A stretch of DNA of 64,000 bases from Rubrivivax albus (GTDB taxonomy: Bacteria; Pseudomonadota; Gammaproteobacteria; Burkholderiales; Burkholderiaceae_C). The notes under the pieces are model-generated. The model made no database searches. It worked only from the letters and a program-made list of their open reading frames with translations, and was not told where the DNA came from. The stretch covers positions 1-64,000 of the forward strand of contig NZ_SACT01000007.1 in assembly GCF_004016515.1 (NCBI RefSeq). The letters are read 5' to 3'. Of the stretch, positions 18,386-53,598 are shown piece by piece (the stretch's first letter is position 1; every line of letters begins with the position of its first letter). A program made the position numbers and the translations under genes.

Positions 18386-18398
18386 GAGGTTCTCCGGG

Positions 18399-36689: not shown

Positions 36690-37403
36690 ATGAACCTGAC
36701 CTGCAAGGCCGTGCTCTTCGACACTGGCGGTACCGTGCTGGACTGGCACGGTTCTCTCGTTCAGGCCCTGGGCGCCCTGACGCCCTGGCCTGCGGGCACC
36801 GTGGACGCGCATGCCTTCGTCAACGAATGGCGGCGTCGCAGCATGGGCGGGATCGTCGGGCAGGTCCGACCACCCTTCGACATGGACGATGTCCATCGAA
36901 GCGCGTTGAAGGCCACGGTCGAGCACTTCGGCCTGACGCCGATGCCAGAGCCAGCCGCCACAGGACTCTGGCAGGCCTGGCGCCGGGTCTCGGCCTGGCC
37001 GGACTTCGCCCCCGCGTTGCAGCGCCTGCGCGGCACGTTGCCCGCGGTGTCGTTCACCATGCTGCCCACGTCGCTGGTGGTCGATGTGTCCCGACACAAC
37101 GGGCTGACCTGGGACGCCATCGTCTCGTGCCAGATGATCGGCATCTACAAGCCCCACGCCGAGGCCTACCAGACGGCGGTCCGCTGGCTGGGCCTCGGGC
37201 CGGCCGACGTGCTGATGGTGGCTTGCCACAACTTCGATCTCAACGCAGCCCAGGACCAGGGCATGCGGACGGCCTTCGTGCGTCGCCCCGCCGAGTGGGG
37301 CCCGGCCGGACCGCCGGACCCTTGGCCAAACCGGGTCTATGACCTCGTCGTCGACGACTTCGACACCCTGGTCGACGGCATCCTGGGGCGTGAGACCGGC
37401 TGA
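36690..37403 (+). CDS. Haloacid dehalogenase-like hydrolase, type II
   Basis: This 237-residue HAD-superfamily protein has motif I FDTGGTVLDW with nucleophile Asp11, motif II around FTMLPTS, a motif III lysine in GIYKPHAEAY and motif IV ACHNFDLNAAQDQG. The layout resembles 2-haloacid dehalogenases or small phosphatases with an alpha-helical cap. Substrate is unknown. GAGGAAAGG precedes the ATG. It faces the arsenosugar-type operon tail to tail (6-base gap), and a phosphatase role in that pathway is only a guess. Confidence 0.82.
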   Translation: MNLTCKAVLFDTGGTVLDWHGSLVQALGALTPWPAGTVDAHAFVNEWRRRSMGGIVGQVRPPFDMDDVHRSALKATVEHFGLTPMPEPAATGLWQAWRRVSAWPDFAPALQRLRGTLPAVSFTMLPTSLVVDVSRHNGLTWDAIVSCQMIGIYKPHAEAYQTAVRWLGLGPADVLMVACHNFDLNAAQDQGMRTAFVRRPAEWGPAGPPDPWPNRVYDLVVDDFDTLVDGILGRETG

Positions 37404-37408
37404 GCCCG

Positions 37409-37963
37409 TCAACCCGACGCTTCGGGCAACCAGGCCAGCAACGGCGCGTAGCCGTCCTCCGCCAGCGCCTTGCCGCGGCTGGCGTAGAGCTCGTCGCTGC
37501 CCTTGATGCCATGCCCCTCGAGCAGCCGGTTCATCAGGTTGAACAGGCCGATCGTCAGCACTGCGTCGTGCAGGTCGCGTTCGCTCCAGCCGGCATCGAA
37601 CGCGGCCTGCGCGTCGGCCGCGGCCATTCGCGACGGCGTCAGCGTCAGCTTGCGTGCGAATGCCAGCAGCGGCCGCAGCCTGGGCTCGACCGGCGCCTGC
37701 TCGAGGTCGCTCAGCAGGGCATCGAGCAGCCCCGCGTCGACCCCGAAGGCGATGGCCGTCTCGCGGTGCACGCCGTGGCAGTACTGGCAGGCGTTCAGCC
37801 CCGACACGTAGGCGGCCAGCAGTTCCTTGTCGCGCGCCGTCAACGCCGTGTCGTGGCGCAGCACGGCGCAATGGAAGGCCACCAGCGCGCGGCCGGCCTC
37901 CGGGTTCAGCGCCAGGAGGTGACGCGCGCCAGCGTCGGCCGGCAGGCTGGGGAAGAAGCTCAT
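37409..37963 (-). CDS. AhpD-like carboxymuconolactone decarboxylase family protein
   Basis: This 184-residue all-helical protein has the AhpD redox motif NACQYCHGVH (CxxC plus His) and the family frame DKELLAAYVSGLNA. Such proteins act as peroxidase or disulfide relays. It is the last gene of the long minus-strand operon, 58 bases after the MTA-phosphorylase-like gene, and a second AhpD-like protein heads that gene group at 52077. GGAGCA precedes the ATG. Confidence 0.85.
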   Translation of the reverse strand: MSFFPSLPADAGARHLLALNPEAGRALVAFHCAVLRHDTALTARDKELLAAYVSGLNACQYCHGVHRETAIAFGVDAGLLDALLSDLEQAPVEPRLRPLLAFARKLTLTPSRMAAADAQAAFDAGWSERDLHDAVLTIGLFNLMNRLLEGHGIKGSDELYASRGKALAEDGYAPLLAWLPEASG

Positions 37964-38021
37964 CGGGTCTGCTCCTGCGATGGGTGGGAGATCAAGGATG
38001 GCGTGGCGCGTCGCCCTGGGC

Positions 38022-38867
38022 TCAGCGACGCAACACCGCCAACCAGTCGCGCTGCGCGGCGTCGAGGGCAACCTCAGGCGTCAGGACGGCCCCGACGAGG
38101 GCCTGGCGTGCCGCCGGTTCTGGCGTCGGCAGGGGCGCCGCCAACAGGGAAGCCAGCAGGCGCCTGGCCGCCGCCAGTGTGTGCCCGTAGCGCTCGAAGA
38201 TCGTCTGCACCTGCGCATGCTGCGCCGGGTCGTCCATCCAGCTGTCGTAATCGGTGACCAGGCCGACGGTGGCGTAGCCCAGCTGCGCTTCGCGCGCCAG
38301 GAAGACCTCGGGCACGTTCGTCATGCCCACCAGATGCGCTCCGAAACTGCGCAGCAGGTGGCTTTCGGCGCGGGTGCCCAGGCGCGGGCCTTCCACGCAG
38401 GCGTAGGTGAGGCCGGAAGCGACCGTCAGCCCGATGCGCTCACCGGCCGCCACCACCGCCTCCGCCAGCCGCGCACTCACGGGCTCGGCGGTGGACACGT
38501 GGGCCGCGACACCCTTGCCGAAGAAGGTCTGCGTCCGGCGACCTCGGGTCCAGTCGATGTACTGCGCCGGCATGGCCAGCGCGCCGGGCGCCAGTACTTC
38601 GTCCAGGCTGCCCACGGCGGAGAAGCCCAGCAGTTGCGTGGCGCCAGCCCGCTTGAGGGCAAACACGTTGGCCCGGTAGTTGACTTCGTGGGGCAGCCAT
38701 CGGTGCCCGGCGCCATGACGGGCCAGGAACAACAGGGGCTGGCCCTGGACGCGACCGAGGTGCACCTCGCCGGAGGCCTCGCCAAACGGCGTGGCAGCCG
38801 ACAGCCGCGCCTCGATCTCCAGGCCCGGCAGCTCGTAGAAGCCGGTACCGCCGACGATGGCGAGCAT
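38022..38867 (-). CDS. mtnP: MTA phosphorylase-like purine nucleoside phosphorylase
   Basis: This is a 281-residue PNP/MTAP family enzyme with phosphate-binding GGTGFYELPG, HGAGHRWLPHEVNYRAN, EGPRLGTRAESHLLRS, GMTNVPEVFLAREA and VTDYDSW. The Asp of TDYDSW indicates preference for 6-aminopurines (adenine) over inosine. It cleaves 5'-methylthioadenosine to adenine and ribose-1-phosphate derivatives. In this operon the likely substrate is the arsenic-bearing 5'-deoxyadenosine made by ArsS, giving an arsenosugar phosphate (inference). Start ATG lies three bases after the preceding stop. Confidence 0.88.
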   Translation of the reverse strand: MLAIVGGTGFYELPGLEIEARLSAATPFGEASGEVHLGRVQGQPLLFLARHGAGHRWLPHEVNYRANVFALKRAGATQLLGFSAVGSLDEVLAPGALAMPAQYIDWTRGRRTQTFFGKGVAAHVSTAEPVSARLAEAVVAAGERIGLTVASGLTYACVEGPRLGTRAESHLLRSFGAHLVGMTNVPEVFLAREAQLGYATVGLVTDYDSWMDDPAQHAQVQTIFERYGHTLAAARRLLASLLAAPLPTPEPAARQALVGAVLTPEVALDAAQRDWLAVLRR

Positions 38868-38870
38868 GGG

Positions 38871-39887
38871 TCAGTCCTCCGAGCGCACGGCGTCGGCCAC
38901 ACGGTAGGCCGGCCCGTGCGCGATCCGATCGAAGTAGGACAGGTGCGCGTCACTGCCTTCCGGCCAGGTGGCCTGAAACCGTGCACGCCACGTCGCCGCA
39001 TCGACGTCGATGGCGATCGCCTCGGCGTGCACGTGGTCCAGCCCTGCGCGTACACCAAAGCGGCGCTCCGGCCCACGGTATGGGCGCAGTGCGATGCGTG
39101 TCAGCAGCCCGGCACCATCGCCCTGGAAGTTGGGCATGCCGGCCGCGCCGTTGTTCAGGATCCAGTGCCGGGGCGCAGCGTCGGCCTCGAGCCGCAAGCG
39201 CTGGAACACCGGCAGGCAGGTGTGCGAACAGGCGAAGGCATCGACCCCGCTCGCGGCGAACCACGGCCTGGCCAGGTCGCGGCCCGCCGGCTCACGCAGG
39301 TGTTCCTGGGCGAAACCCCAGCCGGCCAGCGACTGCGCGTCGCCATGCACGATGCCCACCCGGCAGCCACCCACATCCGCGCGCAGCCACATCGGCAGTT
39401 TGGCCAGCGTGCGCCGCTGTGCTGCGGAGGTCACGCTTCGCAGGCGGGCATGGATCCGATTGGAACGGTCCACCACGGCGTTGTCCACCCAGTCGGGGTA
39501 GGCGCAGCCACAGCCGGCATCGCCGGCCGCGGCCTCGTCGGCCAGTTCGGTCTCGACATTGCCGCGTATCGCCCAGTGCGCCAGCACCCCCTGCTGTACT
39601 GCGTCGAACCACGCCGGCTCGGCGTCGAACCAGTGGAAGTCGCCGTTGAAGACCAACGCCTTGCGGCCCGACTCCTGCGAAAACAGCTGCAGGACCCGGT
39701 GCAGCGCGACCAGGTTGCCGTACAGGCCGCCGACGACGTACAGGACCTCGAGGTCCTGCAGCCCTGCCGGCGGCGGCACCGCCAAATCCTCCGGGCGATA
39801 CCGGTAATGCAGCGGACAACTGCGCCCCGGCGCCGGCGGTGTCGGGGCCACGTCGGCAGCACCGAGGGCCTGCACAGCCGGGCTCAT
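38871..39887 (-). CDS. Calcineurin-like metallophosphoesterase
   Basis: This 338-residue protein has phosphoesterase-like motifs VVGGLYGN (in place of GDxHG), VFNGDFHWFD, AIRGNVETE and GIVHGDAQSLAG, and ends with ACSHTCLPVF. Asp/Asn/His metal ligands are largely kept, although the first motif is altered (GGLYGN). The substrate is unknown. It overlaps the DUF302 gene by four bases (ATGA) and precedes the MTA-phosphorylase gene, so it may dephosphorylate an intermediate of the same pathway. Confidence 0.75.
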   Translation of the reverse strand: MSPAVQALGAADVAPTPPAPGRSCPLHYRYRPEDLAVPPPAGLQDLEVLYVVGGLYGNLVALHRVLQLFSQESGRKALVFNGDFHWFDAEPAWFDAVQQGVLAHWAIRGNVETELADEAAAGDAGCGCAYPDWVDNAVVDRSNRIHARLRSVTSAAQRRTLAKLPMWLRADVGGCRVGIVHGDAQSLAGWGFAQEHLREPAGRDLARPWFAASGVDAFACSHTCLPVFQRLRLEADAAPRHWILNNGAAGMPNFQGDGAGLLTRIALRPYRGPERRFGVRAGLDHVHAEAIAIDVDAATWRARFQATWPEGSDAHLSYFDRIAHGPAYRVADAVRSED

Positions 39888-40450
39888 GGCGCGACGACGG
39901 CTGCGGCCAGACCTGCCAGCGCCTGCCCCAGCCGCACGGCGGCCGGGCAATCTCTGGCGCCATGGCGGTGCGCGATCCAGGCGGGTTCGTTCCAGCCCAG
40001 CCAGACCTGCCCGCCAGCGTCGGTCCAGACCAGCGCCTTCATCGGCAGGTCGATGCCCGCGGTCTGCGCGCACTGCATCAACGGCGTGCCGGCCTGCGGG
40101 TTGCCGAAGATCACCACCACGGTCGGCGCCAGTGCCTGCCCGACACGTTGTGCCGCGGCCGCGTGATCCACCCGCGCCGCCACGGTCAGCTGGCGCTGCG
40201 TCAGCTGCGCCTCCAGCCTGGCCAGGGTCTGCGCCTGGGTGTGTGGGCTGCGCAGAGTCTGCAGGCCGTGCGCGCCGGCGGAGGCCGTGTCGGCCCGATG
40301 GCCATGCGGCCCGGCACAGCCGGCCAGCACCACGGCCGAGACGCCGGCGGCCAGCAGCGTGGCGGCGCTTCCACGCGCGCGGCCGACGATGGCGCGTGGG
40401 GATGGGGTCAGGGCGTCAGGCGTGTTCATTTCAGCTCGAGTGGGGGTCAT
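39884..40450 (-). CDS. DUF302 domain lipoprotein
   Basis: This 188-residue protein has a lipoprotein signal (LLAAGVSAVVLAGC, cysteine near 45) and a DUF302 domain at about 65-175, recognised by LARLEAQLTQRQLTVAARVD and VVVIFGNPQAGTPLMQCAQTA, then LPMKALVWTD. DUF302 proteins are small periplasmic proteins of unknown function, often near metal or sulfur genes. ATG at 40450 has AAGGAG seven bases upstream. Stop overlaps the next start (ATGA), showing translational coupling. Confidence 0.85.
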   Translation of the reverse strand: MTPTRAEMNTPDALTPSPRAIVGRARGSAATLLAAGVSAVVLAGCAGPHGHRADTASAGAHGLQTLRSPHTQAQTLARLEAQLTQRQLTVAARVDHAAAAQRVGQALAPTVVVIFGNPQAGTPLMQCAQTAGIDLPMKALVWTDAGGQVWLGWNEPAWIAHRHGARDCPAAVRLGQALAGLAAAVVAP

Positions 40451-40554: not shown

Positions 40555-41439
40555 TCAGCCCGTGCCTGCCTGCGACAGCAGGCCGGCGTGGACCGACCCG
40601 GGGGCACGCGCGGCCGGCACCGAGGCCGATGCCGACGCCGAAACCGAGGGCGAAGCCGGCATCGGCCCGGTGACGACGGCGTCGGCCGACGCCGGGTCGT
40701 AGAGCGCCGCCAGGTGTTCGTGCCCCAGCGCCGCGCGGGGCAGGTCCCAGCGGATCCGCCCCCCGGACATGCCCACCACGCGGTCGGCCAGCAGCGGCAG
40801 CAGCGCGAGGTCATGGACCACCGTGAGCAGGGAGCGCCCGCCACCGGCCAGCGACCGCAGCGCGGCACACACGTGGCGCGTGGCGGCCGGGTCCAGGGCC
40901 GAGGTGGGCTCGTCGGCCAGCACCAGCTGCGGCTGCTGCAGTTGCAGCCGCGCCAGGGCCACCTTCTGCCGCTCTCCACCGGACAGGCGGTCGCTGCGCA
41001 CGCCGGCCTGCTCCGCCAGGCCGACCGCAGCCAGCGCCTGGTCGGCTTCGGTGACCAGCGCTGGCGGGTAGCGGCGCCACCAGCTGCGCCAGGCATCCAG
41101 GCCCTGCAGCCTGGCCAGCGCACCAATGAGCACGTTCTCGCGCGCCGTGAGCCGCGGCACCGGGTGCAGGCCCTGCGACAGCAGACCCACCTCGCGCCGG
41201 TGCTGCCGGCGCACCTGCAGCGGCGCAGCGTCGGCCACATCGCGGCCGAGCACCGTCACACGGCCGCTCGCAGCGGCGACCTGCCCGCCGATCAGGCGCA
41301 GCAGTGTGCTCTTGCCAGCCCCGTTGGGGCCCACCAGGGCCACGTGCTCGCCAGCCGTCAGCCGAAAATCCGCCACCTGCAGCAACGTTCGCCCGCCAGC
41401 CTCCACCGTCACGCCGTGCAGGCTGACCGCCGCGCTCAT
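40555..41439 (-). CDS. PhnC-like ABC transporter ATPase
   Basis: This 294-residue ATPase has Walker A GPNGAGKST, signature LSGGERQKVALARLQL, Walker B LVLADEPTSALD and H-loop VVHDLAL. It is closest to phosphonate/phosphite PhnC-type ATPases. The C-terminal ~35 residues are a Ser/Ala-rich tail (SVSASASASVPAARAP) without function. With the PhnE- and PhnD-like genes upstream it makes a complete importer. Length apart from the tail is normal. Confidence 0.88.
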   Translation of the reverse strand: MSAAVSLHGVTVEAGGRTLLQVADFRLTAGEHVALVGPNGAGKSTLLRLIGGQVAAASGRVTVLGRDVADAAPLQVRRQHRREVGLLSQGLHPVPRLTARENVLIGALARLQGLDAWRSWWRRYPPALVTEADQALAAVGLAEQAGVRSDRLSGGERQKVALARLQLQQPQLVLADEPTSALDPAATRHVCAALRSLAGGGRSLLTVVHDLALLPLLADRVVGMSGGRIRWDLPRAALGHEHLAALYDPASADAVVTGPMPASPSVSASASASVPAARAPGSVHAGLLSQAGTG

Positions 41440-41474: not shown

Positions 41475-42374
41475 TCACAGCAGGGCCTCCCTGATGCGTC
41501 GCGACAGGGCGTCGAAGCCGACGACCAGCGCGATCACCACGAGCAGCAGCGTTGCCAGCCGGCTCCACTGGAACAGACTCACGGCCTCGCTGATCAGCAG
41601 CCCCAGGCCACCGGCTCCGATCAACCCGAGGATCGTCGAGTCGCGGATGTTGAATTCCCACACGTACAGGTGATGGCTGACGAACTGCGGCAGCACCGAC
41701 GGCCAGACCCCGTGAAAGAACACTTGCATCGGCGAGGCGCCGGTGGCGCGCACCGCTTCGACCGCGGCCATGTCCAAGGACTCGATGCTCTCGGCAAACA
41801 GCTTGCCGTACGTGCCCATCGAATGCAGGGCGATCGCCAGCACACCTGCGGTCGGCCCGAGGCCCACGATGCCCACGAGGACCAGCCCGAACACCAGGGT
41901 GTGCACTGCGCGCGTGACGTCCAGCACCGCCTTGGCCCCCCACGCCAACGGTCGCGGCGCACGCAGGTTGCGCGCCACCAGCAGCGCCAGGGGCAACGCG
42001 AGCAGCGCGGCCAGCAGCGACCCGAGGGTGGCGATCTGGAAGGTGACCCAGGTCGCACGCGCGAGCCCGGCCAGGTACGCGGCTTCCACCGCCCGTCGGT
42101 TTTCCACCCGCAGCACCGTGCCGTCGTCGCTGCGGTACTCGAGTCGCTCCGGCCCGAACCACGCGTCCAGCAGGCTGGGCCGCGCGAACTCCGACAAAGT
42201 CTTGAGCAGGTTGTCCCAGGGGCTGCGACCGAAACTCAGGTCGCCGGTGGCCACCAGGGTGGCCAGGCACAGCACGACCAGCGCTGCGTAGCACGCCATC
42301 AGCAGCGCGAATCCGGCTCGGCCCGCCGGCCACCACCAGCGGTTCACCGCGTGGGTGTGGGTCACGGCATTCAT
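41475..42374 (-). CDS. PhnE-like ABC transporter permease
   Basis: This 299-residue permease has an N-terminal helix, then a polar insert, then about five helices. The coupling loop is AVEAVRATGASPMQVFFHGVWP, preceded by SMGTYGKLFAESIE. This is the PhnE pattern (phosphonate, phosphite or other oxyanion uptake). ATG at 42374 gives MNAVTHTHAVNRWWW; a longer in-frame start would run into the PhnD-like gene. It forms the channel for the transporter in this operon. Confidence 0.87.
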   Translation of the reverse strand: MNAVTHTHAVNRWWWPAGRAGFALLMACYAALVVLCLATLVATGDLSFGRSPWDNLLKTLSEFARPSLLDAWFGPERLEYRSDDGTVLRVENRRAVEAAYLAGLARATWVTFQIATLGSLLAALLALPLALLVARNLRAPRPLAWGAKAVLDVTRAVHTLVFGLVLVGIVGLGPTAGVLAIALHSMGTYGKLFAESIESLDMAAVEAVRATGASPMQVFFHGVWPSVLPQFVSHHLYVWEFNIRDSTILGLIGAGGLGLLISEAVSLFQWSRLATLLLVVIALVVGFDALSRRIREALL

Positions 42375-42408: not shown

Positions 42409-43299
42409 TCAACGAGGCTCCAGCTTGCCGGTGGCCAGGCCGGCGTCGCGAATGGGCTTGTAGAAGGCGTTGTCACGGGCCACGAAGCCGGTGTAGTTGG
42501 CCGGCAGCAGTTGGGCCTGCGTCGCCAGCAGCGGGCCCACCTCGGCCAGGGCCTCCTGCAGGCGGCGCACGAAGGCGGCGTCCCTGGCCAGCGTGGCGCT
42601 CACGGCCACGGCATCGTTGGGCAGGGGCGCCGACTGCCAGATCACCTTGCTGCGTGCCGCGGAGATCAGCCCCTGGGCGATCATCGCGTCGCGGTTGCGG
42701 TTGTAGTCGGCACCGGCGTCCAGTTGACCGGCCGTGACCTGCGTCTGGATCGCCTGGTGCTTGGTGTAGAGCACCCGCGAGAAGTGCTTCTCCGGGTCGA
42801 TGCCGCGCTTCTGGAATTCGAAGTACGGGATGAGGTAGCCGGAGGTGGAACCCTTGTCGCCAAAGGCGAAACTGCGGCCGCGGCCCTTCGCCCCCAGCAG
42901 GTCGTCCAGGGTCTCCAGGCCCGAATCCGGGTGGGTGACGATCATGCCGAAATACTCCGGCTTGCCTTGGTAGAGGATCGTGGAGACCACCTGCGCACCG
43001 GCGTAGTGGTTGGCCAGCACGTAACCCCAGGGGCCCATCAGCGCCAGGTCGGTCTCACCATTGGCCAGACTCTTGGCCAGGCCTTCCCAGCTGTCGACCG
43101 TGCGCAGGTTGACCGGCCGTCCGAGGCGTGCCGCCAGGTGTGCGGCCAGCGGACGGTAGGTGGCGTCGTTCTTCTCGCGGTCCGGCTGGAACATGCCCAC
43201 GCCGAAGTTCAGCGGTGTGCCTTGGGCGCGCAGCGCCGCGGGCAGCGCCAGGGCGGTTCCGGTGGCCAGGACGTTGAAGTGTCGGCGGGTCAGGTTCAT
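42409..43299 (-). CDS. PhnD-like periplasmic substrate-binding protein
   Basis: This 296-residue precursor has a Tat-like signal (TRRHFNVLATGTALALPAAL). The mature domain (GVGMFQPDREKNDATYRPLA, ETDLALMGPWGYV, FGDKGSTSGYLIPYFEF) is a PhnD/SsuA-type binding fold. Related proteins in other genomes are annotated as putative selenate-binding components. It differs clearly from AioX at 6485, as it lies with a permease and ATPase. The ligand may be an oxyanion or an arsenosugar precursor (unknown). ATG overlaps the previous stop by ATGA. Confidence 0.87.
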   Translation of the reverse strand: MNLTRRHFNVLATGTALALPAALRAQGTPLNFGVGMFQPDREKNDATYRPLAAHLAARLGRPVNLRTVDSWEGLAKSLANGETDLALMGPWGYVLANHYAGAQVVSTILYQGKPEYFGMIVTHPDSGLETLDDLLGAKGRGRSFAFGDKGSTSGYLIPYFEFQKRGIDPEKHFSRVLYTKHQAIQTQVTAGQLDAGADYNRNRDAMIAQGLISAARSKVIWQSAPLPNDAVAVSATLARDAAFVRRLQEALAEVGPLLATQAQLLPANYTGFVARDNAFYKPIRDAGLATGKLEPR

Positions 43300-44474
43300 G
43301 TCGTCTCTCCGGTTCGGGTAGCCACGGGATCGGCCACGAGGGGGGCGTTGTCGGCCGGTGCGTCGACCCCGGGCGACGCACGCAGGCGGGCGAGAAATCG
43401 GCGATCGATGCGGTCCTTCCAGGCCCAGGCCCACGCACCTTCGGCGCCGAATCGGCCTCGGGCGGCGATGGCGCGCCGGTCGCCGGTGGCCAGCAGGGTC
43501 AGAAAGTGCCGCTGCGGGCGATGTCGCTGAAACGTGCCACCGGCGCTGCAGGCCGTCAGCAGGTTGTGCGTCAGGACCGGCCCCATCCGCACGGCGTGCA
43601 CACCGGCCTTCGGCAGCGGTCTGCCGGGCCAGCTGGCACAGTCACCGGTGGCGAAGATCTGCGGATGCGAGACCGAGCGCAGATGGATGTCGATGGCCAC
43701 GAAGCCATCGTCATCGACCGCCAGTGCACCGCGCCGCGACGGATCCAGCTGCCAGTCGTGGGCCTGGGCGCCGGTGGCCCACAGCACCACGTCGCTGCTG
43801 CGGTCCACGGCGTCGCACCAGCTGCTGCCCAGCTGCACGGTGACCCCGGCGCGGTCCAGCGCACGCAACGCGGCCCGGCGAGCAGCCGGCGCCAGGCCTG
43901 GCAGCACCGATGTCCCACGCACCAGCCAGCCGCCCTGCACCACCCGATCCGGACGCAGCTGGCGCAAGCGCTGCAGCAGGGCCAGCAGCGCTTCGAAGCC
44001 GGCGGCGCCGCCACCGACGGCCGTGACGACGAACGGCTGCTCGCCGCGGTCCGCCTGCCATGCGGCCAGCAAGGCCTGCACGCGCGTGTGCAACGCCGAC
44101 AGCGGTCTCAGCGGCAGCATCTGCGCGTGCCGCGCCGCGGGCGGGCGCAGCGTCGAGCCCAGGTTCAATGACAACAGGTCGTAGTCGAGCGCGTCGCCGT
44201 CCTGCAGGAACACACGCCGGCGCGCCGGGTCCAGCGCCTGCACCTCGCCCTGACGCCAATGCGCGCCCGCGGCCCTGGCCAGGGGTGGGAAGTCGACGGC
44301 AATGTCGCCGTAGGTGTACAGCCCCGCCAGCCAACCGGGCACCATGCCGGAGTACGGCGCCAGAGGCTCCGGCGACACCACCACGACCTCGACAGCGGTC
44401 GGTCGGCGCTGCGCCATCGCTCGCAGCACCAGGGCATGGGCGTGTCCGGCGCCGGCCAGCACCAGGCGCTTCAC
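43296..44474 (-). CDS. FAD-dependent pyridine nucleotide-disulfide oxidoreductase-like protein
   Basis: This 392-residue flavoprotein has an N-terminal dinucleotide-binding start LVLAGAGHAHALVLRAMA, a second VTAVGGGAAGFEALLALLQR and FAD-binding IFATGDCASWPGRP. It resembles the NDH-like family found fused to selenophosphate synthetase in some bacteria and beside PhnD-like selenate transporters. No CxxxxC disulfide is evident, so it may act as an NAD(P)H-quinone or metalloid reductase. The GTG start overlaps the preceding stop (GTGA). It is coupled to the transporter genes. Confidence 0.82.
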   Translation of the reverse strand: MKRLVLAGAGHAHALVLRAMAQRRPTAVEVVVVSPEPLAPYSGMVPGWLAGLYTYGDIAVDFPPLARAAGAHWRQGEVQALDPARRRVFLQDGDALDYDLLSLNLGSTLRPPAARHAQMLPLRPLSALHTRVQALLAAWQADRGEQPFVVTAVGGGAAGFEALLALLQRLRQLRPDRVVQGGWLVRGTSVLPGLAPAARRAALRALDRAGVTVQLGSSWCDAVDRSSDVVLWATGAQAHDWQLDPSRRGALAVDDDGFVAIDIHLRSVSHPQIFATGDCASWPGRPLPKAGVHAVRMGPVLTHNLLTACSAGGTFQRHRPQRHFLTLLATGDRRAIAARGRFGAEGAWAWAWKDRIDRRFLARLRASPGVDAPADNAPLVADPVATRTGETT

Positions 44475-45106
44475 GACGTGGGCTCCGGTGCCGCCCCGGG
44501 CACGCCCCAGTGCGGGGGGAGGTGCTCCAGGTCGGCCGGCTCGTCGACGTCGGCCACTGGTGGCAGTTCGATCCAGCGCGCCCCGGCAGCCTGCAGCCGG
44601 CGCCGCGTATCGGCCATGACCTGGTCGTGGCTCCAGCGCATGCCGTCGAACCAGCGCGGGTCGGCCCGCCGCAGGCCCACGAGCGCGTAGCCGCCGTCCT
44701 GCGCCGGCACGAAGACCGCGTCGGTCTCGCGCAGCGCCTGCGCCGCCGTGCGCAGCATCCGGGCGTCCAGCGCCGGCGCATCGGTGCCGATGACGATGGC
44801 GCGGCCGTGGCGGGACAGGACGCGCATGAAGCAGCGGTGCATGCGCAAGCCCAGGTCCCCGTCGCCCTGTGCCGTGAGCGCGGCGCCGGCGGCTCGCGCC
44901 GCCTCCATCAGCGCGGGGTGGGCAGTGTCCGGTGCGGCGCACAGTTCGACCGGGCCCACGTCGGCGGCCACCGCCTGCGCCAGCGTGTGCTCGAGCATGC
45001 GCGCAGCCAGCTTCGCAGCGCCGTCGGCACCCAGGGCCGGAATCAGGCGCGTCTTGGCCAGACCAGCCACGGGCGCCTTGGCGAAGACAACCACGATCGC
45101 ACTCAA
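44471..45106 (-). CDS. CofC-like glycosyltransferase of the arsenosugar type (TIGR04282-like)
   Basis: This 211-residue protein has a nucleotide-sugar-binding start IVVVFAKAPVAGLAKTRLIP and GRAIVIGTDAPALDARML, typical of the CofC/MobA-like small transferases that NCBI links to arsenosugar biosynthesis. Its closest associates in many genomes are the TIGR04283 transferase and ArsS, both adjacent here. TTG at 45106 overlaps the previous stop (TTGA). No better start exists with normal length. It probably activates or transfers the sugar or glycerol part (inference). Confidence 0.85.
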   Translation of the reverse strand: MSAIVVVFAKAPVAGLAKTRLIPALGADGAAKLAARMLEHTLAQAVAADVGPVELCAAPDTAHPALMEAARAAGAALTAQGDGDLGLRMHRCFMRVLSRHGRAIVIGTDAPALDARMLRTAAQALRETDAVFVPAQDGGYALVGLRRADPRWFDGMRWSHDQVMADTRRRLQAAGARWIELPPVADVDEPADLEHLPPHWGVPGAAPEPTS

Positions 45107-46625: not shown

Positions 46626-48787
46626 GCACGCTCCCACGCGTGGTAACGCCCGACCCATTCCAGCAACCGGGCCGGCGCGTGCGCCCGCTTCCATTCGCCA
46701 GCCACGTACTTGTTGGCCTCCGCCAACGTGGGGTAGGTGTGGATCGTGCCGAGGATCTTGTTCAAGCCGAGACCATGTTTCATCGCCAGCACGTATTCCG
46801 CCAGCAGGTCACCGGCATGCTCACCGACGATGGTGACGCCCAGAATGCGGTCCTTGCCCGGCACCGTGAGCACCTTGACGAAGCCATGGGCCGTGCCGTC
46901 GGCGATCGCGCGATCGAGGTCATCGAGGCCGTAGCGTGTCACTTCGAATGCGATGCCGCGTTCCCGGGCCTCCGTCTCGCTTAGGCCCACACGCGCCACC
47001 TCGGGATCGGTGAACGTCGCCCAGGGGATCACCCGGTAGTCCGCCTTGAACTTCCGGAAGCGCCCGAAAAGGGCGTTGACTGCGGCATACCAGGCCTGGT
47101 GAGCCGCCGTGTGCGTGAACTGGTACGGGCCGGCGACATCACCGACGGCATAGATGTTGGGGTACAGCGTCTGCAGATGGTCGTTGGTCTCGATGGTCCT
47201 GCGGCTCGTCAGCGGCAGCCCCAGTTCCTCGAGCCCGTAGCCCGTGACCCGGGGGCTGCGACCGACAGCGCACAACAACTCGTCGAACGGAATCACGACC
47301 TCGTGACCGTCGTGTGTTGCGATCAGCCGCTTCTCGCCGCCCTGACGTTCAACCCGGGTGGCCTGATGACCGGTGAGCACCTGCACGCCGTCGGCACGCA
47401 GCGAGGCGGCCACCAGATCCGACACCTCCGGATCCTCGCGCACCATGATGCGCGGCGCCATCTCCACCTGCGTGACTTCACTGCCCAGGCGCGCGAAGCT
47501 TTGCGCCAGTTCCGAGCCAATGGGCCCGCCGCCCAGCACCACGAGGCGCCGGGGCAGTTCGGTGAGCCCCCAGACCGTGTCGCTGGTCAGGCAACCGACC
47601 TCTGCCAGCCCCGGGATCGGCGGCACGAACGGGCTCGCGCCCGCTGCGATGACGATGGCACGCGTGCTCAGGGCCTGCACCTTGCCGTCCGCTCCCGTCA
47701 CCTCCACCGTCCACGGGCTGGTGATGCGCGCATGCCCTTGCAGCACCTCCACGCCGAGACTCGTGTATCGCTCGACCGAGTCGTGCGGCGCGATGTCCTT
47801 GACCACTTGCTGCACGCGCTGCATGACGGCCGCAAAGTCCACCCGCCCACCGGCGTCGGCCACGCCGAGCTCGTGCGCCTTGCCGAGCTGCTTCGCCAGT
47901 TTGGCCGACCGGATCAGGGCCTTGCTGGGCACGCATCCGAAGTTCAGGCAGTCGCCGCCCATCCGGTGGCCCTCGACCAGGGTGACCTTGGCCTTGACTG
48001 CTGCGGCGATGTAGGCCGAGACCAGCCCGCCGGCACCGGCGCCAATGACCACCAGGTTCCGGTCGAATCTGCGCGGTCGGGGCCAACGGGCGTACAACTT
48101 GCGCTGGCGGACCCAGGCCACCACCGCCTTGGCGACCAGCGGAAACAGACCCAGCAGGATGAAGCTGACCAACAATCCGGGCGACAGGATGTCCGACGGC
48201 GACTGGATCGCGCCCAGCTGGGTGCCGGCGTTCACGTAAACCACCGTGCCCGCGAGCATGCCGACCTGGCTGACCGCATAGAAGCGGGCTGCGCCGATTG
48301 GCGTCAGCCCCATCACCAGATTGACCAGCCAGAACGGGAATACCGGCACCAGGCGGAGCGTGAGCAGGTAGAACACGCCGTCCCTGCGCATGCCATCGTT
48401 GACCGGTGCCAGGGCCTGGGCGAAGCGCGACTGGACGACGTCGCGCAGCAGGTAACGGGCCACCAGAAACGCCAGCAGGGCGCCGACACTGGATGCAAAG
48501 CTGACCAGCAGCAGCCCCCAACCCAGACCGAACATGGCACCGGCCGCCAGGGTGAGGACCACCGCACCCGGGATCGAGAGCGCCGCCGCAGCCACGTAGA
48601 CCACGAAGAACGCGGCGGCCGTGCGCAGGGGTTCGGCCGCCACTAGGGCCTGCAGCGCATCGCGGCTGCCCTTGAGTTGTTCCAGCGTGAGGAGGTGGCC
48701 GAGGTCGTAGTGGCGCCACGCCCAGGCCAGGACCATGGCCAGCAGTGCGACACCCGCCCACAGCGGGGTCTTGGAGCGCCGCGCCAT
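46622..48787 (-). CDS. TVP38/TMEM64 membrane domain fused to FAD disulfide reductase
   Basis: This 721-residue protein is a fusion. Residues 1-235 form a TVP38/TMEM64 (DedA-like) membrane domain with about six helices and the LRLVPVFPFWLVNLVMGLTP motif. Residues 243-715 are a class I pyridine nucleotide-disulfide oxidoreductase (mercuric reductase/dihydrolipoamide dehydrogenase-like). The latter has GAGAGGLVSAYIAAAVKAKV, redox motif GGDCLNFGCVPSKAL, GGGPIGSELAQ, YAVGDVAG and the C-terminal dimer motif HTYPTLAEANK. The terminal CC of mercuric reductase is absent. It is likely to reduce a low-molecular thiol or metalloid at the membrane. Confidence 0.9.
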   Translation of the reverse strand: MARRSKTPLWAGVALLAMVLAWAWRHYDLGHLLTLEQLKGSRDALQALVAAEPLRTAAAFFVVYVAAAALSIPGAVVLTLAAGAMFGLGWGLLLVSFASSVGALLAFLVARYLLRDVVQSRFAQALAPVNDGMRRDGVFYLLTLRLVPVFPFWLVNLVMGLTPIGAARFYAVSQVGMLAGTVVYVNAGTQLGAIQSPSDILSPGLLVSFILLGLFPLVAKAVVAWVRQRKLYARWPRPRRFDRNLVVIGAGAGGLVSAYIAAAVKAKVTLVEGHRMGGDCLNFGCVPSKALIRSAKLAKQLGKAHELGVADAGGRVDFAAVMQRVQQVVKDIAPHDSVERYTSLGVEVLQGHARITSPWTVEVTGADGKVQALSTRAIVIAAGASPFVPPIPGLAEVGCLTSDTVWGLTELPRRLVVLGGGPIGSELAQSFARLGSEVTQVEMAPRIMVREDPEVSDLVAASLRADGVQVLTGHQATRVERQGGEKRLIATHDGHEVVIPFDELLCAVGRSPRVTGYGLEELGLPLTSRRTIETNDHLQTLYPNIYAVGDVAGPYQFTHTAAHQAWYAAVNALFGRFRKFKADYRVIPWATFTDPEVARVGLSETEARERGIAFEVTRYGLDDLDRAIADGTAHGFVKVLTVPGKDRILGVTIVGEHAGDLLAEYVLAMKHGLGLNKILGTIHTYPTLAEANKYVAGEWKRAHAPARLLEWVGRYHAWERA

Positions 48788-49797
48788 CAGCGGGCCCCGC
48801 CAGCGGCAAGCGTCGTCGTCTCGGCCGCCACGGCGTCATCCAGTGCGCCGCCGCAACTGCTGCCCTGCCCCGCCGTGCACCCGTAGCAGTGATCGGCCAC
48901 GCGGATGGCGTGCCCCGCCGGGTCGTGCCGCAGCAGGTCCCGCAGGTGCGGCCGAGGCACGCTGCCCAGACGCGTGCGTAGCCCCAGCATCTGGTTGAAG
49001 TCGCAGTCGTAGAGGTCGCCCTGCCAGTCGACGCTGACCATCGACCGACACATCACGGTGGCCAGGTTGTCGTCGCGTGAAGCGTCTCGCAGCAGCTTCA
49101 TGTAGGCCTGAAACCCGCCCTTGCTGATCAAGGTGCTGCCGAAGCGCTGGATGGGCATGTTGGCCAGCGCGAAGAGCCGGTCGAACCGGATGCCGAAGTG
49201 CTGCAGCAACTCGCGCTTGTAGTCGGCCTCCAGGGCCGCCTGAGGCGGCGGCAGCACGGGCCCTTGCGGGTTGTAGACGAGGTTGAGCACCAGACCGCGT
49301 GCGGGATCCCCGTATCCCAGCGCATTGAGCTGTCGAAGCCCGGCGATGCTGCGGTCGAAGGCGCCGTCGCCACGCTGTCGGTCGACATTGGCCGGCGAGT
49401 AGCAGGGCAGCGACGCCGTCACCTCCACCCCATGTGCCGCGAGAAAGGCCGCCAGATCCTCCTGCCCGGGTTCGGACAGGATGGTCAGGTTGCAGCGGTC
49501 GATCACTCGCACCCCGATGTCTCGGGCGGCGTGCACAAGGCGACGAAAGTGGGGGTTGAGCTCGGGCGCACCGCCCGTGAGGTCCAGGGTGCCGACGCGA
49601 CGGGCACGCAACACCTCGAGCACGAGATCGACGGTCTCGGCGGCCATGACCTCGGTACGCTGCGGGCTCGCAGCCACATGGCAATGCAGGCAACTCTGGT
49701 TGCAGCGATAGCCGAGGTTCACCTGCAAGGTTTCCAGCACGCGCCGGCGCAGGGGGGGGAAGTCGGTGGCAGCCAGCAGCGGCAGCGTGTCGTGCAT
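48787..49797 (-). CDS. arsS: Radical SAM enzyme ArsS (arsenosugar biosynthesis)
   Basis: This 336-residue radical SAM protein has cluster motif CNQSCLHC (residues about 34-41), LDLTGGAPELNPHF, and a Cys-rich C-terminal domain (MCRSMVSVDWQGDLYDCDFN, HCYGCTAGQGSSCGG), as in the ArsS/DUF3641 family. ArsS uses SAM to attach 5'-deoxyadenosyl to dimethylarsinite, the committed arsenosugar step. Some orthologues are selenoproteins; this one uses Cys. It overlaps the TVP38 fusion gene by one base (TGATG). ATG at 49797 was chosen because conservation starts there. Confidence 0.9.
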   Translation of the reverse strand: MHDTLPLLAATDFPPLRRRVLETLQVNLGYRCNQSCLHCHVAASPQRTEVMAAETVDLVLEVLRARRVGTLDLTGGAPELNPHFRRLVHAARDIGVRVIDRCNLTILSEPGQEDLAAFLAAHGVEVTASLPCYSPANVDRQRGDGAFDRSIAGLRQLNALGYGDPARGLVLNLVYNPQGPVLPPPQAALEADYKRELLQHFGIRFDRLFALANMPIQRFGSTLISKGGFQAYMKLLRDASRDDNLATVMCRSMVSVDWQGDLYDCDFNQMLGLRTRLGSVPRPHLRDLLRHDPAGHAIRVADHCYGCTAGQGSSCGGALDDAVAAETTTLAAGGAR

Positions 49798-49940: not shown

Positions 49941-50249
49941 TCAGCCGCCACCGCGCTGGGTGGCGAGATCGAACCGGCGTTGCACCGCATGCCGGCCGGC
50001 TGCGTCGAAACCGACGTAGCGGAAGTGCACCACCAGCACGGGGATCTGCAGCAGCGCGATGCGCCGTGGCGGGCGCGACTGCCAGGACAGTTCGAGCACG
50101 GCGCCGCCAAAGTTCGCCACGGCCTTGGACGCCTGCGCGTCCACACGCAGATCGGCCCCGGACAGCGCCTTCGGCAGCACGGCCAGCAGGTCGGCCGTGG
50201 TGCACCCCATCTCGCGCGAGAAATCCGGCGGCACGCTGTCCGGCGTCAC
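49941..50249 (-). CDS. Small uncharacterised protein coupled to the binding-protein gene
   Basis: This 102-residue protein starts at GTG 50249, overlapping the solute-binding-protein stop (GTGA). No signal peptide or membrane helix is visible. The sequence (MGCTTADLLAVLPKALSGAD, GAVLELSWQSRPPRRIALLQ, VVHFRYVGFDAAGRHAVQRRF) suggests a compact alpha/beta domain of one beta sheet. I recognise no family. It precedes arsS by 143 bases and may belong to the same transcript. Similar short frames near ArsS would support a pathway role. Confidence 0.6.
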   Translation of the reverse strand: MTPDSVPPDFSREMGCTTADLLAVLPKALSGADLRVDAQASKAVANFGGAVLELSWQSRPPRRIALLQIPVLVVHFRYVGFDAAGRHAVQRRFDLATQRGGG

Positions 50250-51877
50250 CGCGGGGCCACCTTGAACCACTTGAAGAAGAGGAAGTTGTCGGCCCGTTGC
50301 ACGGCGGTGACGGTGTCGCGGACGCCCCAGCTCAGGAATTGCTGGTGCAGCGGCAGATGGCCGAATTCGTCCCGGTGCTGCGCCAGCGCCCGGCCGAGCA
50401 ACGCCGTGCGCCGCTGGACATCGGTCTCGGCCTGCGCGGCGTCGATCAGTGCGTCGGTCTCAGGGTGGCTGTAGGCGCCCAGGTTCCACTGACCGCGCGG
50501 CGGTGCGGGTGTGCCCACCAGCGCAAAGAGCGCGTTGTGCGCGTCGTAGCCGGCGGGTGACCATCCCGCCATGAAGAAGCTGGTGTCGCGCCGCAGCACC
50601 TTGGGAAAGTACGTGGCCTTGGGCTGGGCCTGCACACGCACCCGCACGCCGACCCGAGCCAGCTGCGCGGCCACGGCCTGGCAGATCTCGCTGTCGTTCA
50701 CGTAGCGGTCGTTGGGGCAGTCGAGCGTGATGTCGAAGCCGTCGCCATAACCGGCCTCGGCCAGCAGACGGCGCGCCGCCGCCGGGTCGTGCGGCACCCG
50801 CCTGTCGAGCGTCGCGTCCCAGCCGCGAATGCCCGGCGCAACCATCAGCCCGGCCGGTCGCGCAGCACCGCGCATCAGCTTGTCGACGATGGTGTCCACG
50901 TCGACCGCCTGCGCAAACGCCTGCCGCACACGCTTGTCCTTGAACGGGTTGCGCCCCTTCACGCTGGCATACAGCAGTTCGTCGCGCCGCTGGTCGAAGC
51001 CCAGGAACACCACGCGCGACTCCGGCCCCTGCAGCACCTTGGCACCGGGCTGTCGGCTCACGCGGGGCACGTCCTGTAAGGGCAGCGGGTCGATCAGGTC
51101 GACCTCGCCGGAGACCAGCGCCGCCACACGGGTGGCGTCGTTGGCCACCGGGGTGAACACCACTTCCTCGACGTTGCCCTCGACGGCCCCCCAGTAGCCT
51201 CGGTGACGGACCAGGGTCGTGCGCACGCCGGGCTGGCGTTCGCGCAGCCGGTAGGGGCCGGTGCCGTTGGCGCGGAAGGACGCGGCGTTCTCCACACCCT
51301 TGCGGCGATCCACCGGGCGCTGCGCGCCCTGCTGCTCGGCCCAGCGAGCACTCATCATGTACAGCGACGTGATCAGGTCCGGCAGGATGGGGTTGGGCAC
51401 CCGCGTCTCCACGTCCACGGTGAAGGCGTCGACCTTGCGCACGGCCGTCACCGTGGCCACCTGGCTGCGCATGTCGGAACCGTCGCCACGCGCACGCTCG
51501 ATGGAGAAGACGACGTCGTCGGCATCGAAAGCTGCGCCGTCGTGAAAGCGCACCCCGCGCCGGAGCTCGAATCGCCAGACGTTGGGCGATATGAGGGACC
51601 AGCGCGTGGCAAGCGCGGGCTGCAGCTCGAGCTGCTTGCCGCGCGTGACCAGCGGTTCGTAGACGTTACCCAGGAACGACAGCTGAACCGCCTCGGCCAG
51701 CGAGTGCGGGTCCATCGACAGCGCATCGCCCTGGGTGGCCACCCGCAGCGTCGCCGACTGCGCCCCGGCGGCGACCAGCACCAGCGCCGACACCAGCAAA
51801 GCCTGCATGGCCTGCACGAGCCGCGGCGCGCGCCCGCCGGGCGCTTGATGCACGCTGGAAATGCGGTCGAGTTTCAT
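50246..51877 (-). CDS. DppA/NikA-type extracytoplasmic solute-binding protein
   Basis: This 543-residue precursor has a signal peptide (QALLVSALVLVAAGAQSA) and a family 5 binding fold: TLRVATQGDALSMDPHSLAE, FELRRGVRFHDGAAFDADDV, VVFSIERARG and FKDKRVRQAFAQAVD. Such proteins bind oligopeptides, nickel, glutathione or opines. No permease or ATPase genes of this transporter class are nearby, so it may be an orphan receptor. ATG at 51877 is preferred over 51892. It sits between the peroxidase-like gene and arsS in the same direction. Confidence 0.87.
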   Translation of the reverse strand: MKLDRISSVHQAPGGRAPRLVQAMQALLVSALVLVAAGAQSATLRVATQGDALSMDPHSLAEAVQLSFLGNVYEPLVTRGKQLELQPALATRWSLISPNVWRFELRRGVRFHDGAAFDADDVVFSIERARGDGSDMRSQVATVTAVRKVDAFTVDVETRVPNPILPDLITSLYMMSARWAEQQGAQRPVDRRKGVENAASFRANGTGPYRLRERQPGVRTTLVRHRGYWGAVEGNVEEVVFTPVANDATRVAALVSGEVDLIDPLPLQDVPRVSRQPGAKVLQGPESRVVFLGFDQRRDELLYASVKGRNPFKDKRVRQAFAQAVDVDTIVDKLMRGAARPAGLMVAPGIRGWDATLDRRVPHDPAAARRLLAEAGYGDGFDITLDCPNDRYVNDSEICQAVAAQLARVGVRVRVQAQPKATYFPKVLRRDTSFFMAGWSPAGYDAHNALFALVGTPAPPRGQWNLGAYSHPETDALIDAAQAETDVQRRTALLGRALAQHRDEFGHLPLHQQFLSWGVRDTVTAVQRADNFLFFKWFKVAPR

Positions 51878-52076
51878 GCCCTGATCTTCCATGGCGGCAA
51901 ATCACGAAGGATCGCACAGGAACCGCAACACATGGCCCGCAGCCCGAGGTGCCCGAGGGCCGGTCGGCACGCCACCTGGCCCCCGGTCGGCCAGACCAGG
52001 GCAGCACCGCCCGGCCGTCCGACCGTGCCGCCACGCCCCTCGGAAGCAGCGAACAGCGTGAAGCCAGGTCTTCACT

Positions 52077-52646
52077 TCAGGCCACGCGATAGGCCGCGAA
52101 GGCCGGGTCGACCTCTGTCGCGAAGGCGTGGTTGCTGAAGTTGCTCAGCGTCTTCACGGCCATTGCCAGAATGATGTAGAGCACATCGCGCTCCTGGTAG
52201 CCGGCATCGAGGAAGGCCTGCAGGATGGCTGGCGCAGGCCGGCCCTGGCTGCGGACCATCTCGGTGGTCAGCGCGTGCAGCGCGGCCAGGCGCGCATCGG
52301 GGATCGGCTGTCCACCGCGGATGGCCTGCAGCACATCGGCCGACACGCCGGACTTCTTGTCGGCAATCATGCTGTGGGCCGCCGTGCAGTAGCTGCAGCC
52401 ATTGGCTGCGCTGATGGCCAGAAACACCACCTCCTGCTCGGCGGGCGTCAGGCCCGACTCGCTGCGGAATCGCGCATAGCCGAACAGGTAGGTGGACAAC
52501 ACCGCCGGCGCATTCACCATGTTGGCGTACATGTTGGGAATGAACCCGACCTGGGCCAGGGCCTGGTCGAGGACCTCCTTTTGCGCACCCTCGGCCTGGT
52601 CGTGCTTCACGGCGTCGAGCGCGTGGAGGTAGCGGGTGGTGGTCAT
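52077..52646 (-). CDS. Peroxidase-like carboxymuconolactone decarboxylase family protein
   Basis: This 189-residue AhpD-superfamily protein has redox motif NGCSYCTAAHSMI and LTPAEQEVVFLAISA. Length and N-terminus (GAQKEVLDQALAQVGFIPNM) match the peroxidase-like proteins that accompany ArsS in arsenosugar gene clusters. It would handle peroxide or disulfide chemistry. It is the first gene of the run transcribed toward arsS and is separated from the solute-binding-protein gene by about 200 bases without other genes. Confidence 0.87.
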   Translation of the reverse strand: MTTTRYLHALDAVKHDQAEGAQKEVLDQALAQVGFIPNMYANMVNAPAVLSTYLFGYARFRSESGLTPAEQEVVFLAISAANGCSYCTAAHSMIADKKSGVSADVLQAIRGGQPIPDARLAALHALTTEMVRSQGRPAPAILQAFLDAGYQERDVLYIILAMAVKTLSNFSNHAFATEVDPAFAAYRVA

Positions 52647-52695
52647 CGCAAATCCTTGGCTGTCGTGGAAGAAGCCCCGATGCTGGGGCCGAGCC

Positions 52696-53598
52696 TCAGG
52701 ACCCCGTGTGTGCGTGCGTCGCGTCGATTTGATCGAGCGTCTCGCGCAGCCAGGCGGTCGGCGCCCGGCCCGTGTGCCGCTGGAACGCCCGCGTCAAGGC
52801 GGCAGAACTGCCGTAGCCCACCTCGGGTGCGATGGCCTTGAGCGGCCGACCCGCACGGAGCAACCCCTGTGCCAGGCCCACCCGCCAGCGCGCCAGGTAC
52901 TCCGCCGGCGTCTGCCCGACCTGGGCGTGGAAGCGCAGCGCGAATCGGGCCCTCGATAGGCCCGCGATGTCGGCCATGGCGTCGAGTGTCCACATGCGCG
53001 CCGGCGCGGCGTGCACTGCCGCCAGCGCGCGCCCCAGACGGGGATCGGCCAGCCCGGCCAGCGTGCCGGGCTGCAGCTGACCCGCTGCCATGCAGTGGCG
53101 CAGCAGGCGGATCAGGACCAGTTCGCACAGCCGATCGAGTGCCGCCTGCCGGCCCAGCGCCGACGCCTGCGTCGGCGACGACGCGCCTGGCGACTGCGGT
53201 CCACCAAAGGCTTCGGCCTGCATCGACGACAGGAGCGGCTCGATGCCGCCCAGTTCGGCCAGTGGCACCTGGACGAGGGCCGGGAGCGCATCGGTCACGG
53301 GGTTCACGCCACCGCCGGCCACGCTGACCTCGGCACACACGACGTCGGCGCCGTGTCGCCTGTTGGCCACCAGCCTGTGGAATTCCGGGCGCGGCATGAA
53401 CAGCAGCGTCGGCTCGTCGATGCGCACACGGCGACCGTCCGCATCGGCAAGTGTGACGGGGCCCTGCCGGATCAGATGAAAGTGGCCGCGGCGGTCGTCA
53501 CGGTCGAAGTCGTGGATGCCGCAGATCTCGCCGACATGGAACACCGCCGCATGAAGCGGAAAGCGCTGCAACAGCAATGACAGAGGATCGGGCAACAC
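52696..53598 (-). CDS. AraC-family regulator
   Basis: This 300-residue regulator has an N-terminal cupin-type sensing domain (about 10-170, AraC_binding_2-like, IHDFDRDDRRGHFHLIRQGP) and two C-terminal HTHs: MWTLDAMADIAGLSRARFAL, and LKAIAPEVGYGSSAALTRAF with the QRHTGRAPTAWL end. GTG at 53598 is the most plausible start. It lies 49 bases upstream of the peroxidase-like gene and may control it and the arsenosugar-type operon. Inducer unknown. Confidence 0.88.
   Translation of the reverse strand: MLPDPLSLLLQRFPLHAAVFHVGEICGIHDFDRDDRRGHFHLIRQGPVTLADADGRRVRIDEPTLLFMPRPEFHRLVANRRHGADVVCAEVSVAGGGVNPVTDALPALVQVPLAELGGIEPLLSSMQAEAFGGPQSPGASSPTQASALGRQAALDRLCELVLIRLLRHCMAAGQLQPGTLAGLADPRLGRALAAVHAAPARMWTLDAMADIAGLSRARFALRFHAQVGQTPAEYLARWRVGLAQGLLRAGRPLKAIAPEVGYGSSAALTRAFQRHTGRAPTAWLRETLDQIDATHAHTGS

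Follow-up and report, generated by a model that had tools for sequence, protein, structure and literature searches.

The first 64,000 nucleotides of contig NZ_SACT01000007.1 of Rubrivivax albus (assembly GCF_004016515.1), analysed here at full length and referred to as the window, carry an operon that encodes the arsenosugar radical S-adenosylmethionine (SAM) enzyme ArsS together with an ATP-binding cassette (ABC) transporter of the PhnDEC type. Among arsenosugar clusters, this operon represents a variant of importer type, one that is recurrent in Betaproteobacteria. The importer goes with arsS, whereas arsS does not need the importer, and the PhnDEC transporter very probably serves the ArsS pathway. 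The association was examined in two samples—120 related genomes and 399 genomes of the order, some of them shared with the first—and the p-values given throughout are raw, with neither the number of tests nor kinship allowed for. Among the related genomes, arsS is over its cut-off in 49 of 120, at 54 places, and the window PhnD as a query finds 20 places in 19 genomes at 63-100% identity (hereafter clade A), with the next homologue at 42%. These clade-A genomes carry arsS in 18 of 19 cases against 49/120 overall (p=1.4e-7), and the sole one without it (G059) is a genome only 75% complete. In the order sample, for which at most five first-look PhnD candidates per genome were scored, arsS is present in 15/17 clade-A genomes against 119/399 (p=5e-7), and also in 12 of the 13 genomes with clade B, whose PhnD proteins are 35-45% identical to that of the window. 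Ten of the 20 clade-A places in the related genomes lie less than 15 kb from arsS as compared to none of 34 places with other PhnD homologues (p=8e-6).

The span 49797-37409 on the minus strand is one tightly packed operon, as a sequence-only reading made earlier from the same DNA had held in calling it one transcript unit. With start codons and extents taken from the list of open reading frames (ORFs) of the window, 13 genes run on that strand from ArsS (49797) to a carboxymuconolactone decarboxylase (CMD) protein (37409); with the starts chosen, overlaps of 1-4 nt occur at 7 of the 12 junctions, and the other gaps are 3, 34, 35, 58 and 104 nt, the last being the largest. That reading's naming of arsS and of two arsenosugar glycosyltransferases is likewise upheld, all three being over their curated cut-offs. 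From the arsS end, the genes are:

48787-49797, minus strand: ArsS, arsenosugar radical SAM enzyme (TIGR04167, 448.4 bits, cut-off 300; cysteines C32/C36/C39).
46622-48787, minus strand: FADa, a fusion of a VTT (TVP38-like) domain with a pyridine nucleotide-disulfide oxidoreductase (PF09335, PF07992 and PF02852; NF004991, 516 against a cut-off of 620).
45777-46625, minus strand: DUF547 protein (PF04784, 4.8e-24).
45103-45780, minus strand: TIGR04283 arsenosugar glycosyltransferase (273 bits, cut-off 182).
44471-45106, minus strand: TIGR04282 (CofC-like) arsenosugar glycosyltransferase (200 bits, cut-off 134).
43296-44474, minus strand: FADb, a TIGR03169-like pyridine nucleotide-disulfide oxidoreductase (306 bits, below the cut-off of 310).
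42409-43299, minus strand: PhnD-family binding protein with an HtxB-like "hybrid" type of pocket (TIGR01098, 143 against 112; PF12974, 3.1e-56; HtxB 5ME4, 1.6e-45).
41475-42374, minus strand: PhnE permease (TIGR01097, 240 bits, cut-off 217).
40555-41439, or with a GTG start at 41478, minus strand: PhnC ATPase (best match TIGR02315, 173 bits, below the cut-off of 266).
39884-40450, minus strand: DUF302 protein (PF03625, 2.4e-19).
38871-39887, minus strand: MPE, a divergent calcineurin-like metallophosphoesterase with cysteines C24, C126, C128 and C224 (PF00149, 4e-5).
38022-38867, minus strand: methylthioadenosine (MTA) phosphorylase-like enzyme, or MTAP-like enzyme (TIGR01694, 263 bits, below the cut-off of 275).
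37409-37963, minus strand: CMD/peroxidase-related protein (TIGR01926, 94.5 bits, cut-off 81.8).

The bond between the importer and the rest of this gene set extends to the 10 clade-A loci that are unlinked from arsS: MPE follows the importer in nine of them, the tenth stopping at a contig edge, and TIGR04282 is found in four, FADb in three and FADa in two. In a 160-genome phylum sample, the sole match of the window PhnD at 1e-35 was the window itself. Relatives of the clade numbered 300 in a named genome collection, and the best 80 among them were analysed; by their record labels they come mostly from Betaproteobacteria (Rubrivivax, Hydrogenophaga, Aquabacterium, Accumulibacter and others), with one Silanimonas and one Pseudoxanthomonas. 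Since at least 16 of these 80 are the same loci as in the first samples, they do not form an independent sample. In their flanks ArsS is found in 46/80, MPE in 59/80 and one or more of eight core genes in 71/80, and a match to the methyltransferase gene arsM in 0/80; for the 39 relatives whose flanks reach at least 9.5 kb either way the counts are 24 with ArsS, 31 with MPE and 34 with at least one core gene. Where the downstream flank reaches at least 4.5 kb, which is so for 62 relatives, MPE accompanies the importer in 46. Seen from arsS, the transporter is uncommon: among 139 arsS loci (drawn from 159 arsS places, window included) only 14 have it, as do 13 of the 101 with at least 8 kb downstream. 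Thus, a link between transporter and arsS, for which the sequence-only reading had looked to neighbourhood comparison, is seldom seen from the side of arsS, but from the side of the transporter it stands out in genomes, places and relatives alike, and the transporter does belong with the arsS system. What has to be given up is the notion that the FAD gene and PhnDEC form an unusual insertion or a unique combination, for both are recurrent companions of arsS. Among the matches listed from the open-licence literature, no title or abstract opening names an arsS-linked importer.

Beyond this association, the 101 arsS loci with long downstream flanks differ in what accompanies ArsS: arsM is found in 13, PhnD in 13, a sodium:solute symporter-like (SSS-like) protein in 9 and MPE in 46 (in 25 of these alone), and 41 have none of the four. 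MPE and arsM never occur in one locus (0/13 arsM loci against 46/88 others, p=2e-4), MPE goes with importers (21/22 against 25/79, p=4e-8), and no locus has both PhnD and the symporter. The symporter, of about 465 amino acids with weak matches to sodium:solute symporter (SSF) models, lies directly between arsS and MPE, without PhnDEC, in the loci L038, L039, L041, L080, L204, L212, L222, L223, L227, L229 and L259, while L040, which is like these, is cut by its contig end. Related ArsS lineages have one or the other importer in the same slot: ArsS-SSS-MPE-HAD in L039 and L080 corresponds to ArsS-PhnD-PhnE-MPE-HAD in L053, and DUF302-ArsS-SSS-MPE in L038 (with L222 and L223 of the same symporter type) to DUF302-ArsS-PhnD-PhnE-MPE in L197. 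This swap of the two importers is the best evidence for import as a conserved step; unrelated importers in one slot would be easier to understand if they shared a small monovalent anion with two oxygens than if they shared phosphite, and dimethylarsinate would fit both.

The same data bear on the view that the two gene sets are together by chance or by lineage inheritance alone. Most of the members found are Betaproteobacteria, as that view would have it. Yet 12 changes of the PhnD label are needed on a quick ArsS tree, no fewer than 7 of them forced by starred branches, copies unlinked from arsS still co-occur with it, and a Roseomonas plasmid bears a comparable set whose radical SAM genes are different ones; descent alone is already disfavoured by the repeated gains and appears scarcely probable. 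In that plasmid (p546-1, L192, 4043-16768) genes for TIGR04282, DUF547, PhnDEC, MPE, VTT, FAD enzymes and a GT2 protein are accompanied by two other radical SAM proteins in place of ArsS (one scoring 100 against 490 for TrsS, the other 95 against 380 for Rv1681 and 61 against 300 bits for ArsS). On another plasmid, bglu_2p of B. glumae (L196, 2600-17314), arsS is clustered with the two glycosyltransferases, MTAP, an MFS transporter and another radical SAM gene that is weakly TrsS-like. In L162, L165, L173 (the L197 locus), L183 (the same as L252) and L187, a different gene comes within about 60 nt after PhnD-PhnE, and PhnC has no match; these importers may borrow an ATPase from elsewhere.

The operon is like the ArsM-ArsS arsenosugar pathway in its ArsS, TIGR04282 and TIGR04283 proteins over cut-off and in invariant ArsS cysteines as they occur beside arsM; it differs in that neither the operon nor the genome has a recognised ArsM, an importer and MPE being there instead. 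The ArsS proteins of arsM-type (14) and PhnD/SSS/MPE-type loci (54) have in common the radical SAM cysteines (C32/C36/C39) along with seven others, and only one site differs consistently (over 80% on each side), with N/H at 81. A different ArsS substrate in the importer loci was considered and set aside, as no set of sites separates the two kinds of ArsS. The adenosylation of arsenic by ArsS reportedly goes back to Cheng et al. 2021. Such adenosylation is described in the accessible part of PMC12159101, which cites that work, and the accessible part of a study on diatoms has ArsM supplying methylated arsenic for arsenosugars (PMC5552862). If ArsS acts alike here, dimethylarsenic would be needed without a recognised ArsM, and the importer would be its natural source.

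The absence of arsM, noted earlier for the operon, holds across the whole Rubrivivax albus genome (5.31 Mb, 99.98% complete), where the best scores are 48.8 bits against a cut-off of 263 for the general arsM model (NF008823) and 19.4 against 400 for the arsenosugar ArsM (NF038099). An arsM hidden among generic methyltransferases was sought among the five weak matches of this genome, which include UbiE- and UbiG-like proteins as assigned by reading their sequences, and was rejected. The lack is no peculiarity of this organism: 81 of the 119 arsS genomes in the order sample are without a recognised arsM, and such absence is common among arsS genomes.

Taken together, the operon is best explained, with about even confidence, as an arsenosugar (or related adenosyl-arsenical) pathway of importer type, in which PhnDEC would bring a methylated arsenical for ArsS. 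In such a pathway, methylated arsenic made by other organisms would reach the periplasm, from which PhnDEC would import a small pentavalent oxyanion, with dimethylarsinate (DMA(V)) as the likeliest candidate and methylarsonate as a possible one. Reduction inside to DMA(III) might be carried out by one of the FAD enzymes of the operon or by cellular thiols; ArsS would then add the 5'-deoxyadenosyl group, the MTAP-like enzyme would remove adenine, and the two glycosyltransferases with other enzymes would complete the sugar, presumably in this order. The importer would thereby take the place of ArsM as the source of methylated arsenic.

The pocket of the binding protein bears on the candidate ligands. 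By sequence, the nearest solved structure to the window PhnD is HtxB (5ME4, 1.6e-45), followed by PhnD, PtxB, AioX and ArrX. The available sections of PMC5700983 and PMC6629693 describe HtxB as binding hypophosphite with W52 as a Trp cap and a salt bridge between D206 and R178, F158 and N128 removing the third oxygen site. In an alignment, the window PhnD shares with HtxB, beside the family, the cap (W71) and the Asp-Arg lid (D229 and R201), and it differs in having S151, H181 and Y199 in place of N128, F158 and M176, as well as in an operon without htxA or ptxD. Precisely these substitutions (N128S, F158H and M176Y) name the "HtxB-like" or hybrid class (which is group 5 in PMC5700983) in the sections of PMC6629693 at hand, to which class the window pocket belongs by its residues. 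W71, S151, T152, S153, H181, Y/F199, R201 and D229 are found in 80/80 relatives, with Y in 67 and F in 13 at position 199. The class differs here in being tied to arsS, whereas in those sections of the two papers it comes without gene context or measured ligand. The window PhnD has no cysteine, and 93 of 102 PhnD proteins of the relatives lack one over the part that was aligned. Arsenite binding in the manner of AioX was thus rejected, as the ligand cysteine (Cys106 in AioX) has no counterpart; the want of a cysteine argues against the thiol mode and would fit a pentavalent anion. That the ligand is a methylated arsenical is judged about as likely as not.

A different view of the same pocket is that PhnDEC imports reduced phosphorus (phosphite, hypophosphite or phosphonate) as a phosphorus supply and lies in an arsenic operon since arsenic and phosphorus stress coincide. 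The order of the solved relatives, with HtxB first and then PhnD and PtxB, speaks for it, as does the opinion, in the available part of PMC6629693, that the hybrid class likely binds phosphite. An HtxB-type relative on a Cupriavidus plasmid, with N, F and M at the three sites, adjoins PhyH and phosphonate dehydrogenase genes. Against it, phnJ occurs in 3/120 related genomes and a ptxD-like gene (E<=1e-60) in 5/120, but neither is found in the 19 clade-A genomes or in the own genome of the window (htxA was not searched for). Use of phosphonate by C-P lyase and of phosphite by PtxD is therefore unlikely in this clade, and both were dismissed as its function. The transporter resembles the C-P lyase PhnCDE in a PhnE over the family cut-off and differs from it in that PhnD (TIGR03431, 153 against 261) and PhnC (against TIGR02315, as listed above) stay under the phosphonate-specific cut-offs and in the genome having no phnJ match. 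With arsS in nearly all clade-A genomes, the conserved link to MPE and ArsS and the SSS-like symporter filling the same slot, import of reduced phosphorus appears unlikely.

The rest of the window bears on yet another view, i.e., that the substrate of PhnDEC is an inorganic oxyanion of arsenic or selenium (arsenate, arsenite or selenate), with methylation by an unrecognised enzyme or not needed at all. Its first 19 kb (3719-18725) are an arsenic island with two-component regulators, an AioX-like protein, AioB and AioA (TIGR02694 and TIGR02693 over cut-off), an ArsA with an ArsE-like thioredoxin domain at the N-terminus, ACR3, a weak ArsC match, ArsJ with its GAPDH, ArsI/CadI and ArsR. The protein in question is:

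6485-7336: AioX-like solute-binding protein (AioX, 1.8e-62).

AioX and ArrX, according to the available part of PMC5908839, resemble PhnD and have arsenite and arsenate as ligands, and the window PhnD does share with the AioX/ArxX/ArrX sensors the fold family and the arsenic context, with an AioX-like protein in the same window. It differs from them in having no ligand cysteine and in the gene context of an ABC transporter rather than of a sensor; the two PhnD-family proteins of the window are 29% identical over 238 columns. The island thus has a separate AioX-like protein, and import of inorganic arsenic would be counterproductive next to the arsenite oxidase and efflux genes. As for selenate, the TIGR04553 selenate-binding protein model gives a match, but one of only 100 bits against a cut-off of 250, on which a selenate importer was discarded. 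Import of an inorganic oxyanion is accordingly held to be improbable. ArsI is a C-As lyase, and its presence fits a cell exposed to methylarsenicals.

The frequent presence of MPE could be read in yet another way, namely that PhnDEC salvages a larger arsenosugar or its glycerophospho form and that MPE is the phosphodiesterase, as its company with the importer in most relatives might suggest. The pockets of the HtxB type are small and closed (68 Å3 in HtxB and, as modelled, 88 Å3 or 20 Å3 more in the hybrid class, in the available part of PMC6629693), with conserved lid residues; furthermore, the regular partner is ArsS, a biosynthetic enzyme, and MPE has lost a metal motif, which together make salvage highly improbable. 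Calcineurin-like metallophosphoesterases are marked by a DxH metal motif and by GHxH. In MPE the former is replaced by G-L-Y (GLYGN) and the last histidine of the latter by cysteine (SHTC), while GD, GN and H181 are kept. The window MPE scores 24.6 with the Pfam calcineurin model against a threshold of 21.5 and the Roseomonas relative is over it too, but in four other MPEs the match is under threshold or absent, and no relative was found in the PDB even by profile search. Among 116 aligned loci (duplicates kept) C24, C128 and C224 are present in all and C126 in 113. Instead of being a plain phosphatase, MPE might be a metal or arsenic enzyme that bears cysteines.

Several observations weigh against the import of methylated arsenic for ArsS. 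In the order sample, no arsS reaches its cut-off in two of the clade-A genomes, G313 and G380, the latter of which has an arsM. In the hybrid pocket, H181 lies at the position of the His with which phosphite-binding PtxB binds the third oxygen, and would also suit phosphite or methylarsonate. Such a pocket also adjoins a PhyH gene in Ciceribacter and in Picosynechococcus has no annotated arsS within 8 kb. In G083 (contig C8, 118797-131844) only 12 kb separate a PtxD-like gene (50% identity) from a clade-B PhnDEC and its divergent MPE, which is a further point for reduced phosphorus, and clade B may include phosphite importers. Within loci, arsM and any importer avoid each other only at p=0.066, and a tree-corrected test of the link between importer and MPE has too few independent pairs for adequate power (3.4 of 6 the same way, 0.1 the other way, median p 0.25). 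At the level of genomes, PhnD and arsM show no significant avoidance among related genomes (arsM in 3/18 against 9/31, p=0.49) or, in the order, for clade A alone (3/15 against 35/104, p=0.38); significance is reached only with clade B included (3/27 against 35/92, p=0.009), and the arsM scan of the 399 genomes scored at most six first-look candidates per genome. Nine genomes carry an MPE-type locus plus an arsM somewhere. Finally, 54 of 133 arsS genomes have neither a recognised arsM nor a recognised importer, and the 41 loci with none of the four companions were noted above; in these, dimethylarsenic would have to come by some other route, and an unrecognised methyltransferase may exist.

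The surroundings of the operon comprise two genes with parallels near other arsS loci:

36690-37403, plus strand: HAD type II hydrolase, facing the end of the operon (TIGR01428, 129 against 125).
52696-53598, minus strand: AraC-type regulator, RclR-like, upstream of the operon (NF040475, 72 against a cut-off of 400).

The HAD type II gene also adjoins MPE in the arsS loci L039, L053, L080 and L259, and the AraC-type regulator is paired with an AhpD-like gene (52077-52646), a pair also found near arsS elsewhere, e.g., in L205 and L148. The TIGR04169 peroxidase-like companion is not among the matches of 37409-37963, and 52077-52646 scores 19.7 with it against a cut-off of 120. A lone family-5 (GsiB/NikA-like) solute-binding protein is encoded upstream of the operon at 50246-51892; searches of the arsS and PhnD loci gave one weak match to it, in L224 (27%). 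Beside the arsS loci of this genus, in L036, L058, L066, L072, L076, L078 and L082, there is a protein cluster with a conserved partner gene, and the one member scanned (L036) is an NrsF-like anti-sigma factor. Towards the end of the window lie an ECF-type sigma factor (61929-62474) and a small protein (63706-63999), whose cluster adjoins another protein cluster in L036, L073, L075 and L078; one member of the latter (L048) matches MbnB/TglH/ChrH (PF05114), and the small protein is possibly part of a metal-binding peptide operon.

In its widest form, the proposal would be that of a dedicated high-affinity importer of methylated arsenic, by which bacteria without arsM take up the DMA(V) that methylating neighbours release, using an HtxB-like ABC importer or, in the same slot of the operon, an SSS-like symporter, and make arsenosugars from it. 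This is put forward tentatively, with somewhat less than even confidence. If true, ArsM would be split from ArsS, the "hybrid" HtxB-like class would at least partly consist of organoarsenical transporters, and MPE would be a novel family of cysteine-bearing enzymes in this route. The hybrid transporter class, left open in the available parts of the HtxB papers, gains a gene context and a candidate ligand, and a cysteine-bearing degenerate phosphoesterase is indicated as an enzyme of the pathway. With so many arsS genomes being without a recognised arsM, arsenosugar precursors may pass between organisms.

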